64,000 nt of DNA from Steroidobacteraceae bacterium (GTDB taxonomy: Bacteria > Pseudomonadota > Gammaproteobacteria > Steroidobacterales > Steroidobacteraceae): positions 1-64,000 of the forward strand of contig JANWJS010000011.1 in NCBI GenBank assembly GCA_025451845.1, in the 5' to 3' direction. Shown here piece by piece: positions 6,214-9,793 of the stretch. A program made the position numbers and the translations under genes. Position 1 is the first letter of the stretch, and the number at the start of each line of letters is the position of its first letter. Under the pieces are notes generated by a model. That model ran no database searches and was not told the DNA's origin. It saw only the letters and a program-made list of their open reading frames with translations.

Positions 6214-6324
6214 TATGATGCGCCGGATCCGGGCATCCTGCCCGTCCCAGCGGGCCTCGGGCAAAAGGCGCGACGCTTGCCCGACGCTCGCCGCCTGTGG
6301 CGGCGGGCACATGCATGTGCCTCG
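6211..6324. repeat. Structured intergenic repeat, copy 1 (trpS-scpA)
   Basis: About 114 bases beginning exactly at the trpS TAG stop. It shares a long, gapped similarity with 21811-21937 downstream of rpsA, starting with TAGTATGA and ending with CACAT..TGTGCC. It folds into four successive hairpins: 6230-6244 (arm CGGGCA), 6257-6264 with 6277-6284 (arm TCGGGCAA), 6290-6304 (GCCGCC/GGCGGC) and 6306-6321 (a perfect 16-base palindrome). It fills nearly the whole spacer up to the scpA start. Confidence 0.85.
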
Positions 6325-6333
6325 GCTTCCATC

Positions 6334-7320
6334 ATGACCAAGCCTGAATTGACCATCGTCGTCTCCAACCCGAGCCCGGAACCGCATCACAGCGAGGCGG
6401 CGCCCCAGCAGGTGGAAATGCCCTTTGCCGTCGTGAACGGCGAGCCGGTGACGGAGCTGCCGCGCGACCTCTACATCCCGCCGCAGGCGCTCGAGGTTTT
6501 CCTCGAGGCATTCGAGGGGCCGCTCGACCTGCTCCTCTATCTCATCCGGCGGCAGAACCTCAACATCCTGGACATCCCGCTCGCCGAGATCACCCGCCAG
6601 TACATGAAGTACATCGAGCTCATGACGGACCTGCAGCTCGAGCTCGCCGGCGAGTACCTGGTGATGGCGGCCACGCTCGCGGAGATCAAATCGCGGATGC
6701 TGCTGCCGCGGCCGAAGATCACGGCCGACGGCGTCGAGGAGGATCCGCGAGCCGAGCTGGTGCGGCGCCTGCAGGAGTACGAGCGCTTCAAGCGCGCTGC
6801 CGAGGGAATAGACTCGCTGCCGCGGCTGGAGCGCGACGTCTGGGCGACCTCGGCGGAGCTCAAGGACCGGCAGGTCGCGCGCGTCCTGCCGCAGATCACG
6901 CTGCAGGAGATGTTGGTCGCCTTCCAGGAAGTCGTGGTGCGCGCCGAAATGTTTGCGCACCATCACATCCAGCGCGAGCGGCTTTCCGTGCGCGAGCGCA
7001 TGGCCGATATTCTCTCGAGCCTCGAGCAGGCGAGCTTCGTCGAGTTCGTGCGCCTTTTCCGGCCGGAGGAGGGACGCATGGGGGTGACGGTCACCTTCAT
7101 GGCGATCCTCGAGCTCGTGCGCGAGGGTCTGATCGATATCGTGCAGGCGGAGCCCTATGCGCCGCTGCACGTACGGGGCGCGACTCCAGCGCGTAGACTG
7201 CGCGTGGTCGCTGACAACGAGGAGCCGCGCCCGAGCGGCGAGCCGGCGGCCCCGGAGAACGCCGTCGGGATGGATTCAGGCGTGCACGACGAGACAGAGG
7301 AGGACGGGACAAGCGAATGA
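6334..7320 (+). CDS. scpA: Segregation and condensation protein ScpA
   Basis: Kleisin subunit of the SMC-ScpAB complex that organises and segregates the chromosome. The N-terminal kleisin helices are clear (ALEVFLEAFEGPLDLLLYLI, then RRQNLNILDIPLAEITRQY), followed by LAGEYLVMAATLAEIKSRML and the C-terminal winged helix around SFVEFVRLFRPEEGRMGVTVTFMAILELV. The ATG at 6334 is preferred because the upstream frame reads through the structured repeat. Both ends carry extra acidic or Pro-rich low-complexity sequence (about 45 residues before the domain and 50 after). It overlaps scpB by ATGA. The presence of ScpAB implies an SMC rather than MukBEF condensin. Confidence 0.95.
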   Translation: MTKPELTIVVSNPSPEPHHSEAAPQQVEMPFAVVNGEPVTELPRDLYIPPQALEVFLEAFEGPLDLLLYLIRRQNLNILDIPLAEITRQYMKYIELMTDLQLELAGEYLVMAATLAEIKSRMLLPRPKITADGVEEDPRAELVRRLQEYERFKRAAEGIDSLPRLERDVWATSAELKDRQVARVLPQITLQEMLVAFQEVVVRAEMFAHHHIQRERLSVRERMADILSSLEQASFVEFVRLFRPEEGRMGVTVTFMAILELVREGLIDIVQAEPYAPLHVRGATPARRLRVVADNEEPRPSGEPAAPENAVGMDSGVHDETEEDGTSE

Positions 7321-8084
7321 ACGAGCACTATCTGCGCAACGTGATCGAAGCGGCGCTGCTCGCCGCGGGCCGACCGCTGCAGCCGGCGGAGCTGATCCAA
7401 CTTTTCGACGAGGGTGCCCGGCCGTCGGGCGAGCAGATGCGCGCCGCGCTGGACGCGCTCGCCGCGGAGTACGCCGAGAGGGGCGTCGAGCTCAAGGAGA
7501 CCGCCGGGGGCGTGCGCATCCAGGTGCGCCGTGAGCTGGCCGGCGAGGTCTCGCGCCTCTGGCCGGAGCGTCCGGCGCGCTACTCGCGGGCGCTTCTCGA
7601 GACGCTCGCGCTCATCGCCTATCGCCAGCCCATCACCCGTGGTGAGATCGAGGGCGTGCGCGGCGTCGCCGTCAATCCCAACATCATCAAGACGCTCCTC
7701 GAGCGGAACTGGGTGCGGGTCGTCGGGCAGCGCGATGTCCCGGGCCGCCCGGAGCTGCTCGGCACGACCAGGGATTTTCTCGACTACTTCGGACTGAAGA
7801 GCCTCGATGAGCTGCCGCCGCTCGCGGAGCTCAAGGCCGTCGGCGACATCAATCTGCAACTCGACCTGCAAGGCCAGTTGAGCCGGCAGACTGCGCCGGC
7901 CGACGGCGAGGCGCCGGCTGCGGCTGCTGAAGGCGAAGCGTCGGCGCAGGCTGCTGCGCAATCCGAAGTGCCTCCGATCGTCATCGAGGAGGAGGAGACC
8001 GGCGAGGAGGGCGACGACGAGTTGTCCGCGGAAGGCAGCGACTCCCACGAGCTCGTTGCAGCGCCCCCGGACAGCGGCGACTGA
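7317..8084 (+). CDS. scpB: Segregation and condensation protein ScpB
   Basis: Dimeric winged-helix partner that binds the linker of ScpA in the SMC complex. Signature blocks include LRNVIEAALLAAGRPL, RYSRALLETLALIAYRQPIT, GEIEGVRGVAVNPNIIKTLLER and GRPELLGTTRDFLDYFGLKSLDELPPL. The conserved core ends near residue 175; the remaining 80 residues are Ala/Glu/Asp-rich and probably disordered. It is coupled to scpA by a four-base overlap and followed after 5 bases by the RluB-like gene, so the three form one operon. Confidence 0.95.
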   Translation: MNEHYLRNVIEAALLAAGRPLQPAELIQLFDEGARPSGEQMRAALDALAAEYAERGVELKETAGGVRIQVRRELAGEVSRLWPERPARYSRALLETLALIAYRQPITRGEIEGVRGVAVNPNIIKTLLERNWVRVVGQRDVPGRPELLGTTRDFLDYFGLKSLDELPPLAELKAVGDINLQLDLQGQLSRQTAPADGEAPAAAAEGEASAQAAAQSEVPPIVIEEEETGEEGDDELSAEGSDSHELVAAPPDSGD

Positions 8085-8089
8085 GCGGC

Positions 8090-9052
8090 ATGCACAAGCA
8101 GCGCGGCGAGCCTGAGCGGCTGCAGAAAGTCCTCGCCCGCGCCGGACTCGCTTCCCGCCGCGAGGCGGAGGGCTGGATCAGGGCCGGGCGCCTCACCGTC
8201 AACGGCCAGGCTGCATCGCTCGGCGTGCGTGTCAGTCCGGACGATGAGGTGCGGCTCGATGGCCGTGTGATCCACCAGCGTGCGCCGCAATCGGGAGGCC
8301 GGGCCTACATCTATCACCGCTCGCCGGGTGAGAGCCTGGATGCCGCGCCCGCGGACGTGCCCGAGGCGGTGCCGCTGCTTGCACGGCTGCCGAAACGCGC
8401 GGGCCGGCGATTCATCGTCGTCAGCCCCATGCCGCGAATCGATGGCGGCCTGGAGTTTGTGTGCGGTGACGGGGAGCTCGTCGCCCGTCTGCAGCGCTCC
8501 GTCCGCCGGCTCTCGAGCGAGCTCAGCGTCAGAGTGCGCGGGGAGCTCATCGAGGACCAGATCGCGGGTGTCCTCGGCGGGGTGCTGGATAGCGGCGAAA
8601 GGTTGTCCGTGTCGAGCTGTGAGGCCGCGGGCGGGGAGGGCGCCAACCGCTGGTATGCGATCGTCACGCGAGGCGCGAGCGGCAAGGACGTGCGGCAGCT
8701 GTTCGAGCGCCAGGGTGCGATCGTCAGCCGGGTGTTGCGCACGCGCCTGGGGCCCATCGCGCTCGATCGCGCGCTCGCGCGCGGGCACTTTCGCGAGCTC
8801 ACGCGCGAAGAGATCGAAGGAATGCTGTCGGCAGGGGCGGCTGAAGTTGACTTGCCGGCCGCGGCTGCCGATGAGCCAGCCCCTGAGCGCCACAAGTCCG
8901 CCCCAGCCGGCCGGCCGAACCCATCCCACCGGCCGGGCCGCTCGGGCCGGCCAACCCCATCAGGGCGGCCGACCCAATCGAAGCCGTCCCCTCGCGGCCG
9001 CTCGCGCCGCTCGCCAGGCGCGCCAGTTCGCCGCGGCGGCAGCCGCGATTGA
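8090..9052 (+). CDS. RluB-like pseudouridine synthase, degenerate active site
   Basis: By position (after scpB) and by its N-terminal S4 domain (RLQKVLARAGLASRREAEGW, residues 10-60) this is the RluB/RsuA-type enzyme that would modify 23S rRNA. The catalytic part has drifted. The usual YKPxG block reads YHRSPGE, and the usual GRLDxxTSGLLLLTxDGEL reads MPRIDGGLEFVCGDGEL, keeping an Asp but losing three residues after it. The later WY and G(R/K)xRQ(V/I)R-like region is present as NRWYAIVTRG and GKDVRQLFE. The last 70 residues are Pro/Arg/Ser/Gly repeats and run antisense over the neighbouring gene. Activity cannot be assumed. Confidence 0.8.
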   Translation: MHKQRGEPERLQKVLARAGLASRREAEGWIRAGRLTVNGQAASLGVRVSPDDEVRLDGRVIHQRAPQSGGRAYIYHRSPGESLDAAPADVPEAVPLLARLPKRAGRRFIVVSPMPRIDGGLEFVCGDGELVARLQRSVRRLSSELSVRVRGELIEDQIAGVLGGVLDSGERLSVSSCEAAGGEGANRWYAIVTRGASGKDVRQLFERQGAIVSRVLRTRLGPIALDRALARGHFRELTREEIEGMLSAGAAEVDLPAAAADEPAPERHKSAPAGRPNPSHRPGRSGRPTPSGRPTQSKPSPRGRSRRSPGAPVRRGGSRD

Positions 9053-9793
9053 GGCGGCGGGAGGACGCGGCAAGGCGCGCTCCGCCCGAAGCGATGCCTG
9101 GAAGGCGAGCGCGGCCCACACCAGCAGTCCACGCGCGCGCTGTTGAGCCGCAGGCGAGAGGCCCGCCACGGCTGCCGCAAGTTGCTGCCGGAGGTGCTGA
9201 TGACGGCTACGCAGGATGTCTGCCAATGCTTGCGGCCACGGCGGCGCAGCGAGCGCTTCGGGCGCAACCGCCGCCTGCTCGAGCTCATCGAGCGGCACAC
9301 GCAGCCTGCCGGCGCGGGCATCGCCAGCGAGATGGCCGAGCAGCTCCAATTCACGCAGAGCCGTGCCGAGCCCGGTCCCGTCTGCTTCGGGCGCAAGCGG
9401 CGCGACCATTGCGGCCGCCCAACGCTGGCAGTAAGCCGTCAGCTCCGCGCGCCGCTCGAACGTTGCGCCCGCGAGATCCCAGGCGGCGGCATCCACCAGG
9501 CCCGAGAGACCCTTCAGGGTGGAGTCGGCACGGCTCCCCGCAGTGAGTTGCTCCACCTGGATCCGCAGCTCCCGCGCGAGCGGATGCACGGGATTGCCCG
9601 CGGCGCACCGGGCGCACTCGCCGCGCCACCACTCGAGGCGGGTGTGGGCGACGTGATGATCGAGGCCGGGCCGCACGCTGGCGCCGATTTCGCGCTCGAT
9701 CGCGCAGAGTGACGCGAGCACCGGCTGTTGGGACGGTGCGCAGTAGAGCCAGGCGAGGAAGCGGGGAGTGCGGGCCTCAGGATTCTCGGTCAT
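8960..9793 (-). CDS. Squalene/phytoene synthase-like protein
   Basis: The fold family is suggested by FLAWLYCAPSQQPVLASLCAIEREI, HTRLEWWRGE, HPLARELR and the later ALRELELLGHLAGDARAGRL-RVPLDELEQ block, the counterpart of the second aspartate-rich motif. The substrate-binding DxxxD motifs of true synthases are not seen (GHLAGDARAG has a single Asp), so a non-catalytic relative, similar to the mitochondrial complex I assembly factor NDUFAF6, is possible. The ATG at 9793 lies 17 bases inside the end of rmuC, and the order ubiG-rmuC-this gene suggests one operon. The last 93 bases overlap the convergent RluB-like gene. Confidence 0.7.
   Translation of the reverse strand: MTENPEARTPRFLAWLYCAPSQQPVLASLCAIEREIGASVRPGLDHHVAHTRLEWWRGECARCAAGNPVHPLARELRIQVEQLTAGSRADSTLKGLSGLVDAAAWDLAGATFERRAELTAYCQRWAAAMVAPLAPEADGTGLGTALRELELLGHLAGDARAGRLRVPLDELEQAAVAPEALAAPPWPQALADILRSRHQHLRQQLAAAVAGLSPAAQQRARGLLVWAALAFQASLRAERALPRPPAASIAAAAAANWRAWRAARAAARGRLRLGRPP

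Follow-up and report, generated by a model that had tools for sequence, protein, structure and literature searches.

An RluB-derived protein with a rewritten active site occupies the rluB position after scpB in Steroidobacteraceae

Introduction

Does the gene that stands in the place of rluB in a Steroidobacteraceae genome still encode a pseudouridine synthase? The gene lies at 8090-9052 of the window, the 64,000-nucleotide stretch of DNA analysed here, and the original prediction described it as an RluB with an eroded active site, either inactive and turned to RNA binding or rebuilt as an enzyme. In E. coli, RluB makes pseudouridine 2605 of 23S rRNA, and much is known about the residues that it needs. 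The R108A variant retains 0.6% activity and Y140F retains 2.8%, Arg17 is the main RNA anchor of the S4 domain, and residues 131-138 form the bulge-binding loop (PMC3919597). Mutation of the equivalent catalytic Asp abolished activity in TruA, TruB, RluA and RsuA, as cited in the same paper. Below, residue numbers between 74 and 198 are those of E. coli RluB, and positions given as aa 77-204 are those of the window protein.

Results

The gene at 8090-9052 (+) is an open frame of 320 amino acids plus a stop codon. It starts 5 bp after the stop codon of scpB (7317-8084, +; Pfam SMC_ScpB, E = 1.7e-50), which follows scpA (6277-7320, +; Pfam SMC_ScpA, E = 6.3e-34; start codon provisional). The gene order is thus scpA-scpB-rluB, the place that had been predicted for it. 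No promoter or terminator was found in a scan of 7900-9200. The predicted S4 RNA-binding domain was also recovered, at aa 9-54 (8114-8251, +; PF01479, E = 3.8e-14, 52.6 bits against a cut-off of 22.8). The NCBIfam RluB model matched residues 9-243 with 136.6 bits, under half of its cut-off of 290, and the nearest solved proteins by sequence were E. coli RluB (4lab, E = 3.1e-35; 9cl9, E = 5.1e-35), then RluF and RsuA. A GGEGANRWY block (aa 181-189; 8630-8656, +) is present here as it is in intact RluBs of sister families. Beyond it, the translation ends in a basic low-complexity tail (8837-9049, +); most relatives align only up to about residue 250-300. Together with scpB-linked relatives in 91 genomes of the family, these matches identify the gene as a direct descendant of the ancestral scpB-linked rluB.

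The Pfam search gave no PF00849 match in this protein at E values up to 1, and the same model matches three other places in the window's genome. One of these three is a second RluB, and the draft may lack some rRNA and tRNA synthases that are normally present.

The catalytic block aligns without gaps to E. coli RluB in both pairwise and multiple alignments. The 24-residue block of the window protein falls on RFIVVSPMPRIDGGLEFVCGDGEL, and a 12-residue stretch on SPMPRIDGGLEF. With no gap in the block, SPMP takes the place of GRLD, and Thr113 is matched by the Asp of RID. A loss of three residues had been described for the motif that follows the catalytic Asp, an impression that arose from placing RID on RLD. 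E. coli positions 102 to 126 correspond to 25 residues in 126 of 126 scpB-linked loci of the family, so the shortening is rejected. RID can also not be taken as a shifted RLD for the family at large. Residue 111 is R in only seven of 24 genera (g1, g2, g27, g35, g39, g44 and g45) and some other letter in 17, so a displaced RLD would fit one part of the family only. The element common to all is the acid.

The residues that changed are those of the active site. Former motif I, KPxGE, now reads RSPGE (aa 77-81; 8318-8332, +), as was predicted, and K74R and P75S are shared by all 47 rows from the genus. What was the catalytic loop (E. coli 107-117) has become SPMPRIDGGLE (aa 112-122; 8423-8455, +). 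Within it, Arg108 is replaced by Pro113 (8426-8428, +), the catalytic Asp110 by Pro115 (8432-8434, +), and Thr113 by Asp118 (8441-8443, +), all from the alignments. Tyr140 is Leu145 in the window (8522-8524, +), and the same-genus rows have Phe (42) or Leu (5 of 47) at this site. Former motif III, EGRNREVRRL, aligns with GASGKDVRQL (aa 195-204; 8672-8701, +), which places Lys199 at Arg194; E190G, R192S and R198Q occur in 47 of 47 same-genus rows and R194K in 46 of 47. The window protein also carries Arg for His131, Ser for Arg138 and Gln for Arg198. Among the bulge-binding residues of the same-genus rows, His131 is Arg in 47/47, Ser133 is Val in 44/47 and Arg138 is Ser in 40/47. The loss exceeds that first described, extending to Arg108, Tyr140, His131, Arg138, Arg194 and Arg198. 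The base-flipping wedge, the catalytic Asp, the cleft Tyr and most of the bulge-reading loop are gone, and the scaffold and the S4 anchor are kept.

A homologue search of 99 relatives gave a match in 91. Many genomes of the same genus have a pair of matches, the closer with about 57-87% identity and the more distant with about 33-47%. Rows of the first, rewritten kind, the window's among them, have R74, S75, S107, P108, M109, P110, R111, D113, G114, E117, Q130, R131, G190, S192 and Q198 in 47/47 (L003, a duplicate, and L204, from another genus, were left out of this alignment; an earlier alignment left out L161, L162 and L206, whose matches did not exceed 150 aa). Rows of the second, intact kind have R108, D110, T113, Y140 and R194 in 43/43. 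The S4 residues R17 and R18 of E. coli RluB are kept in all 45 of the 47 rewritten rows that have a letter there.

The rewritten copy is under purifying selection. Its median dN/dS is 0.28 (707 of 1081 pairs, those with dS between 0.05 and 1), and that of the intact copy is 0.24 (315 of 903 pairs, same dS range). Across 45 same-genus genomes, the codons of the replaced residues vary synonymously while the residue stays constant, except for Met109; Pro110 is encoded by four codons, Arg111 by five and Asp113 by two.

We then compared invariant sites between 45 rewritten same-genus genomes and a group of 44 intact same-genus and 20 sister-family rows. Thirty-six sites are invariant in both groups with the same letter, 17 of them in the S4 part. 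At 13 others (74, 75, 107-110, 117, 130, 131, 190, 192, 194 and 198) each group has a fixed letter of its own, and every one of these falls within the former active-site motifs. In the rewritten copy, 23 of 36 former motif sites are invariant against 39 of 129 in the rest of the domain (Fisher p = 4e-4, a descriptive value, as the motif sites were picked after the same-genus site table); in the intact copy the figures are 29 of 36 and 52 of 129. Mean identity is 0.79 in S4 and 0.70 in the catalytic domain of the rewritten copy, and 0.72 and 0.75 in the intact copy. The switched but fixed sites, the invariance of the motifs and an S4 domain that is now the better conserved part make this look like replacement. 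An eroded active site, as first proposed, does not describe it well: the positions have been fixed to new residues and are not decaying.

Some RluB-type match, a figure that takes in intact copies and other S4 synthases, was found in 210 of 217 genomes of the family (25 genera). Neither Asp110 nor Arg108 occurs in any of the 126 scpB-linked loci, which come from 91 genomes and 24 of the 25 genera of Steroidobacteraceae (translations of 100 aa or less were left out of the family alignment). We give the count as 91 genomes because the 126 loci include duplicates of one and the same gene; from genus g33 no scpB-linked copy was obtained. Taking the first locus per genus, position 110 is P in 14 genera, A in five, G in two and N, Q or H in one each, and position 108 is P in 19, A in three and S or T in one each (the group counted was scpB-linked and not Asp at 110, which left out no scpB-linked locus of the family). 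Positions 110 and 111 vary among genera, and position 113 is Asp or Glu in 91/91 genomes and 24/24 genera. Position 194 is uncertain in g4, g30, g32 and g40, which have one extra residue in the motif. The reading frame is kept at rewritten loci of 24 genera.

Fifteen sister families keep both Arg108 and Asp110, with Thr or Ser at 113, in 29/29 loci (20 from ten families and nine from the other five, where a tenth ended before the site). These loci are scpB-linked in 20 of 20 and eight of nine cases, respectively. Arg108 and Asp110 are also kept in 27/27 class-level loci outside the family, the 27 best, three of which have another single change within the seven sites compared. In a 75-row tree all 46 rewritten proteins sampled form one clade (SH-aLRT 99) on a stem of 0.46 changes per site; the tree came from a quick search method and its finer order is unsure. 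A more careful tree of 52 rows groups the 14 same-genus rows in one clade (100/98), with a long-branch warning for L160 and L163. These trees and counts indicate that the rewriting had one origin, at the base of the family.

The rewritten gene is not universal in the family. It was not seen in ten of 58 same-genus genomes, the window's own included in the 58 (G007, G009, G016, G017, G019, G025, G028, G031, G034 and G053), among which completeness reaches 90% in G016 and G053 only. Nor was it seen in G127, G134 and G135, which are 91-100% complete. Genus g28 shows both states, as G134 and G135 are near-complete and have no rewritten copy and G133 has one.

The window's genome has a second RluB, which the original prediction had suggested looking for. 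A search with a mixed RluB alignment returned the gene at 8090-9052, a gene on contig C47 and one S4-only match at E = 0.08. The C47 gene (L164, 3960-4742; G000:C47) is intact in sequence, with PF00849 and S4 both over cut-off, and this rules out a loss of RluB from the genome that the window belongs to. The C47 gene is flanked by genes for an alpha/beta hydrolase and a Ribosomal_S30AE protein and precedes a cluster of three tRNA genes. Its contig stops within a few hundred bases in many genomes; repeated tuf genes beside such tRNAs could presumably explain these ends. The second type occurs in 98 of 217 genomes and ten of 25 genera of the family (E up to 1e-50). The 15 sampled form one clade in the 75-row tree, which is not the sister of the rewritten clade.

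An AlphaFold2 model built with 47 aligned sequences reached a pLDDT of 88.1 and a pTM of 0.76. Its top match in the PDB is RluB with RNA (4lgt; Z 21.6, TM 0.78, rmsd 3.4 over 241 residues), tied by Z with RluF (21.3, rmsd 2.7 over 228 residues). The sequence identities to the window protein are 35% for RluB and 22% for RluF. The protein is thus predicted to keep the RsuA/RluB-type synthase fold. Trypanosome and Leishmania mitochondrial assembly intermediates matched at Z of about 10. A comparison with mt-LAF5/6 of that particle as synthases was rejected, because these two proteins are described as corresponding to the dimer of the methyltransferase MRM3.

Finally, we looked at the 23S rRNA target. 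The window's own draft genome gave no 23S rRNA match. The RluB stem-loop was matched in 37 of 217 family genomes by a pattern search that allows up to 3 mismatches and would miss more diverged loops, and 11 of the 25 genera are without a matching genome. G132 and G205 were set aside because their 23S sequences share no more than 84% and 80% identity with the rest; these fragments (L351 and L366) are likely contaminating contigs in the drafts. U2604 and U2605 are present in 35/35 sequences kept. Beside the RluB target, in the stem-loop 2588-2606, an A2588-U2606 pair replaces G2588-C2606 in 11 of 12 genomes of genera with a second RluB (L342-L345, L349, L350, L362-L364, L373 and L374; the exception is G224) and in 0 of 23 genomes of genera without one, counts that are not independent on the tree. 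Among 125 class-level genomes with a match, A2588-U2606 occurs in two and G2588-U2606 in four. As the swap and the G-U pair also occur in the class, we draw no mechanism from this change, and do not take it as a cause of the rewriting.

Discussion

The known catalytic set is gone from this protein, the frame is under purifying selection, and the S4 domain and, by the model, the fold are kept. These features together point to a pseudoenzyme. Loss of the original chemistry is well supported. We regard it as somewhat more likely than not that the gene encodes an RluB-derived pseudoenzyme that binds a stem-loop RNA and, without catalysis, serves to hold it or to assist 50S assembly. Of the two outcomes first proposed, lost activity with a switch to RNA binding is the better supported, as the needed residues are gone and S4 is kept, though the binding itself, its RNA target and its purpose are what we infer.

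In the preferred model, the active site would have been dismantled once, at the base of the family, with loss of Arg108 and Asp110 and a change of Thr113 to an acid. The former active site would then have been rewritten with new, fixed residues while S4 and the fold stayed under selection. Binding of an RNA stem-loop most likely persists, and the first candidate is the 23S rRNA stem-loop 2588-2606, the target of RluB. Binding without chemistry is the simplest function to propose: the protein could serve in 50S assembly by holding this stem-loop, which lies close to the peptidyl transferase centre, or some related RNA. The absence of the gene from some genomes of the family counts against this reading. 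In addition, the invariance of the former active site (23/36 against 39/129) would seem to be more than a bare RNA clamp needs.

There is some precedent for such a role. RlmB and RlmL act in 50S assembly without catalysis (PMC11194073), and the title of PDB entry 9cl9, '12C IM fraction ... with RluB bound', hints at RluB being present on particles under assembly. RlmB and RlmL, however, are methyltransferases and are naturally active, and RluB had no such effect in the same report: in E. coli without ten rRNA-modifying enzymes, re-expressed RluB brought no gain in growth or 50S assembly (PMC11194073). Even for the active enzyme, then, a structural role has yet to be established.

The protein might instead be a non-catalytic binder of a non-rRNA target, such as an mRNA or a small RNA, or might regulate the intact RluB. 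We consider this rather unlikely. In its favour, the RNA target may have changed, since His131, Ser133 and Arg138 are gone; recognition may differ while S4 is kept. Chlamydomonas Raa2 is also a synthase homologue with another RNA task, serving intron splicing with no need of enzymatic activity (PMC13172542). Regulation of RluB cannot be the general role, because a second RluB of this type is absent from 15 of the 25 genera and the rewritten copy is found in all 15.

A rebuilt active site, the other outcome first proposed, is the less supported of the two, and we think it unlikely. Here the acid would have moved from 110 to 113, and the enzyme would still isomerise uridine or perform some other base reaction on the same or another RNA. 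The fixed new residues at the 13 switched sites fit this idea, as does the acid at 113 in every rewritten genome (91/91), where all 29 intact loci of the order have Thr or Ser, and so does the former active site being the more conserved part of the domain. Tyr140 points the same way. All loci read keep it in 11 of the 15 genera without a second RluB, and it is kept in none of the nine genera that have a second RluB and a scpB-linked copy that was read. Against these points, the base-flipping Arg108 is lost in 24/24 genera, with Pro in 19, and R108A alone leaves 0.6% activity in E. coli (PMC3919597). Tyr140 and Arg194 are moreover gone in the window's own lineage, whose genome has an intact RluB. 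The acid at 113 may serve to cap the rebuilt loop or to make contact with RNA or a metal; that it is the relocated catalytic residue is doubtful. It is just as doubtful that the protein is a synthase-fold enzyme with its catalytic acid three residues along the loop, no flipping arginine, and kept or new RNA chemistry. Were that so, it would be an active member of the fold without the Asp described as conserved in known pseudouridine synthases.

That the gene is a pseudogene in decay, left behind when its enzyme was displaced, is very improbable. The lost catalytic residues, the second RluB in 98/217 genomes and the genomes that lack the copy would fit decay, but the frame is kept in 24 genera, dN/dS is low, and the replacements stay fixed through synonymous change. 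An assembly or sequencing error, which a draft of 58 contigs might invite, is ruled out for practical purposes by the motif, which recurs in 47/47 same-genus rows and also in NCBI records of independent origin from the window's (L034-L049).

Compared with E. coli RluB (4LGT, 4LAB), the pseudoenzyme that we favour shares the S4 domain, the synthase fold, the place after scpB, the GGEGxNxWY block and the S4 anchor Arg17, and RluB is its top match in both sequence and structure; Asp110, Arg108, Tyr140, Arg194 and most bulge-binding residues are swapped for other fixed ones. The fold of E. coli RluF (3DH3) is alike, but RluF keeps GRLDKDS and the window protein does not. Human RPUSD3 offers a parallel, as its catalytic Asp is replaced by Gly, it is reported to have no activity on rRNA and tRNA, and an active close homologue is present in the same cells (PMC12716993). 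RPUSD3 is a vertebrate homologue of RPUSD4 and belongs to another synthase family, whereas the protein described here is bacterial, RluB-type, spread over 24 genera and carries a rewritten loop. Raa2 resembles it in serving an RNA task where catalysis is not needed (PMC13172542).

Synthase homologues without the Asp are known singly in eukaryotes, RPUSD3 and Raa2 among them, and the earlier cases have been described without activity. In the open-licence PMC literature on inactive pseudouridine synthases, on RluB, U2605 and RluF, on 50S intermediates and on pseudouridine in Steroidobacter, as far as its retrieved texts go, there is no report of such an RluB. The present case is a natural loss across 24 genera within a single bacterial family, in a protein whose active relatives have RNA-bound structures. 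Sister families keep the intact gene and 98/217 genomes of the family add a second copy that is intact in sequence. This makes it possible to test whether rRNA-modifying enzymes are worth keeping for the RNA binding that they provide during ribosome assembly, independently of the modification that they make.

For annotators, a gene in the rluB place of Steroidobacteraceae is no evidence for pseudouridine 2605. At loci in other genera without a second RluB, we take the motifs to be those of RluF. Small amounts of pseudouridine 2605 are made by RluF in E. coli (PMC3919597), so in such genera the RluB function may either be covered in this way or have been lost. Six genomes of genera without a second RluB (G060, G152, G194, G197, G209 and G218) carry another intact RluB-like type with the motif GRLDxDS[TS]GL (L278, L280, L380, L381, L382 and L383), which was possibly acquired separately.
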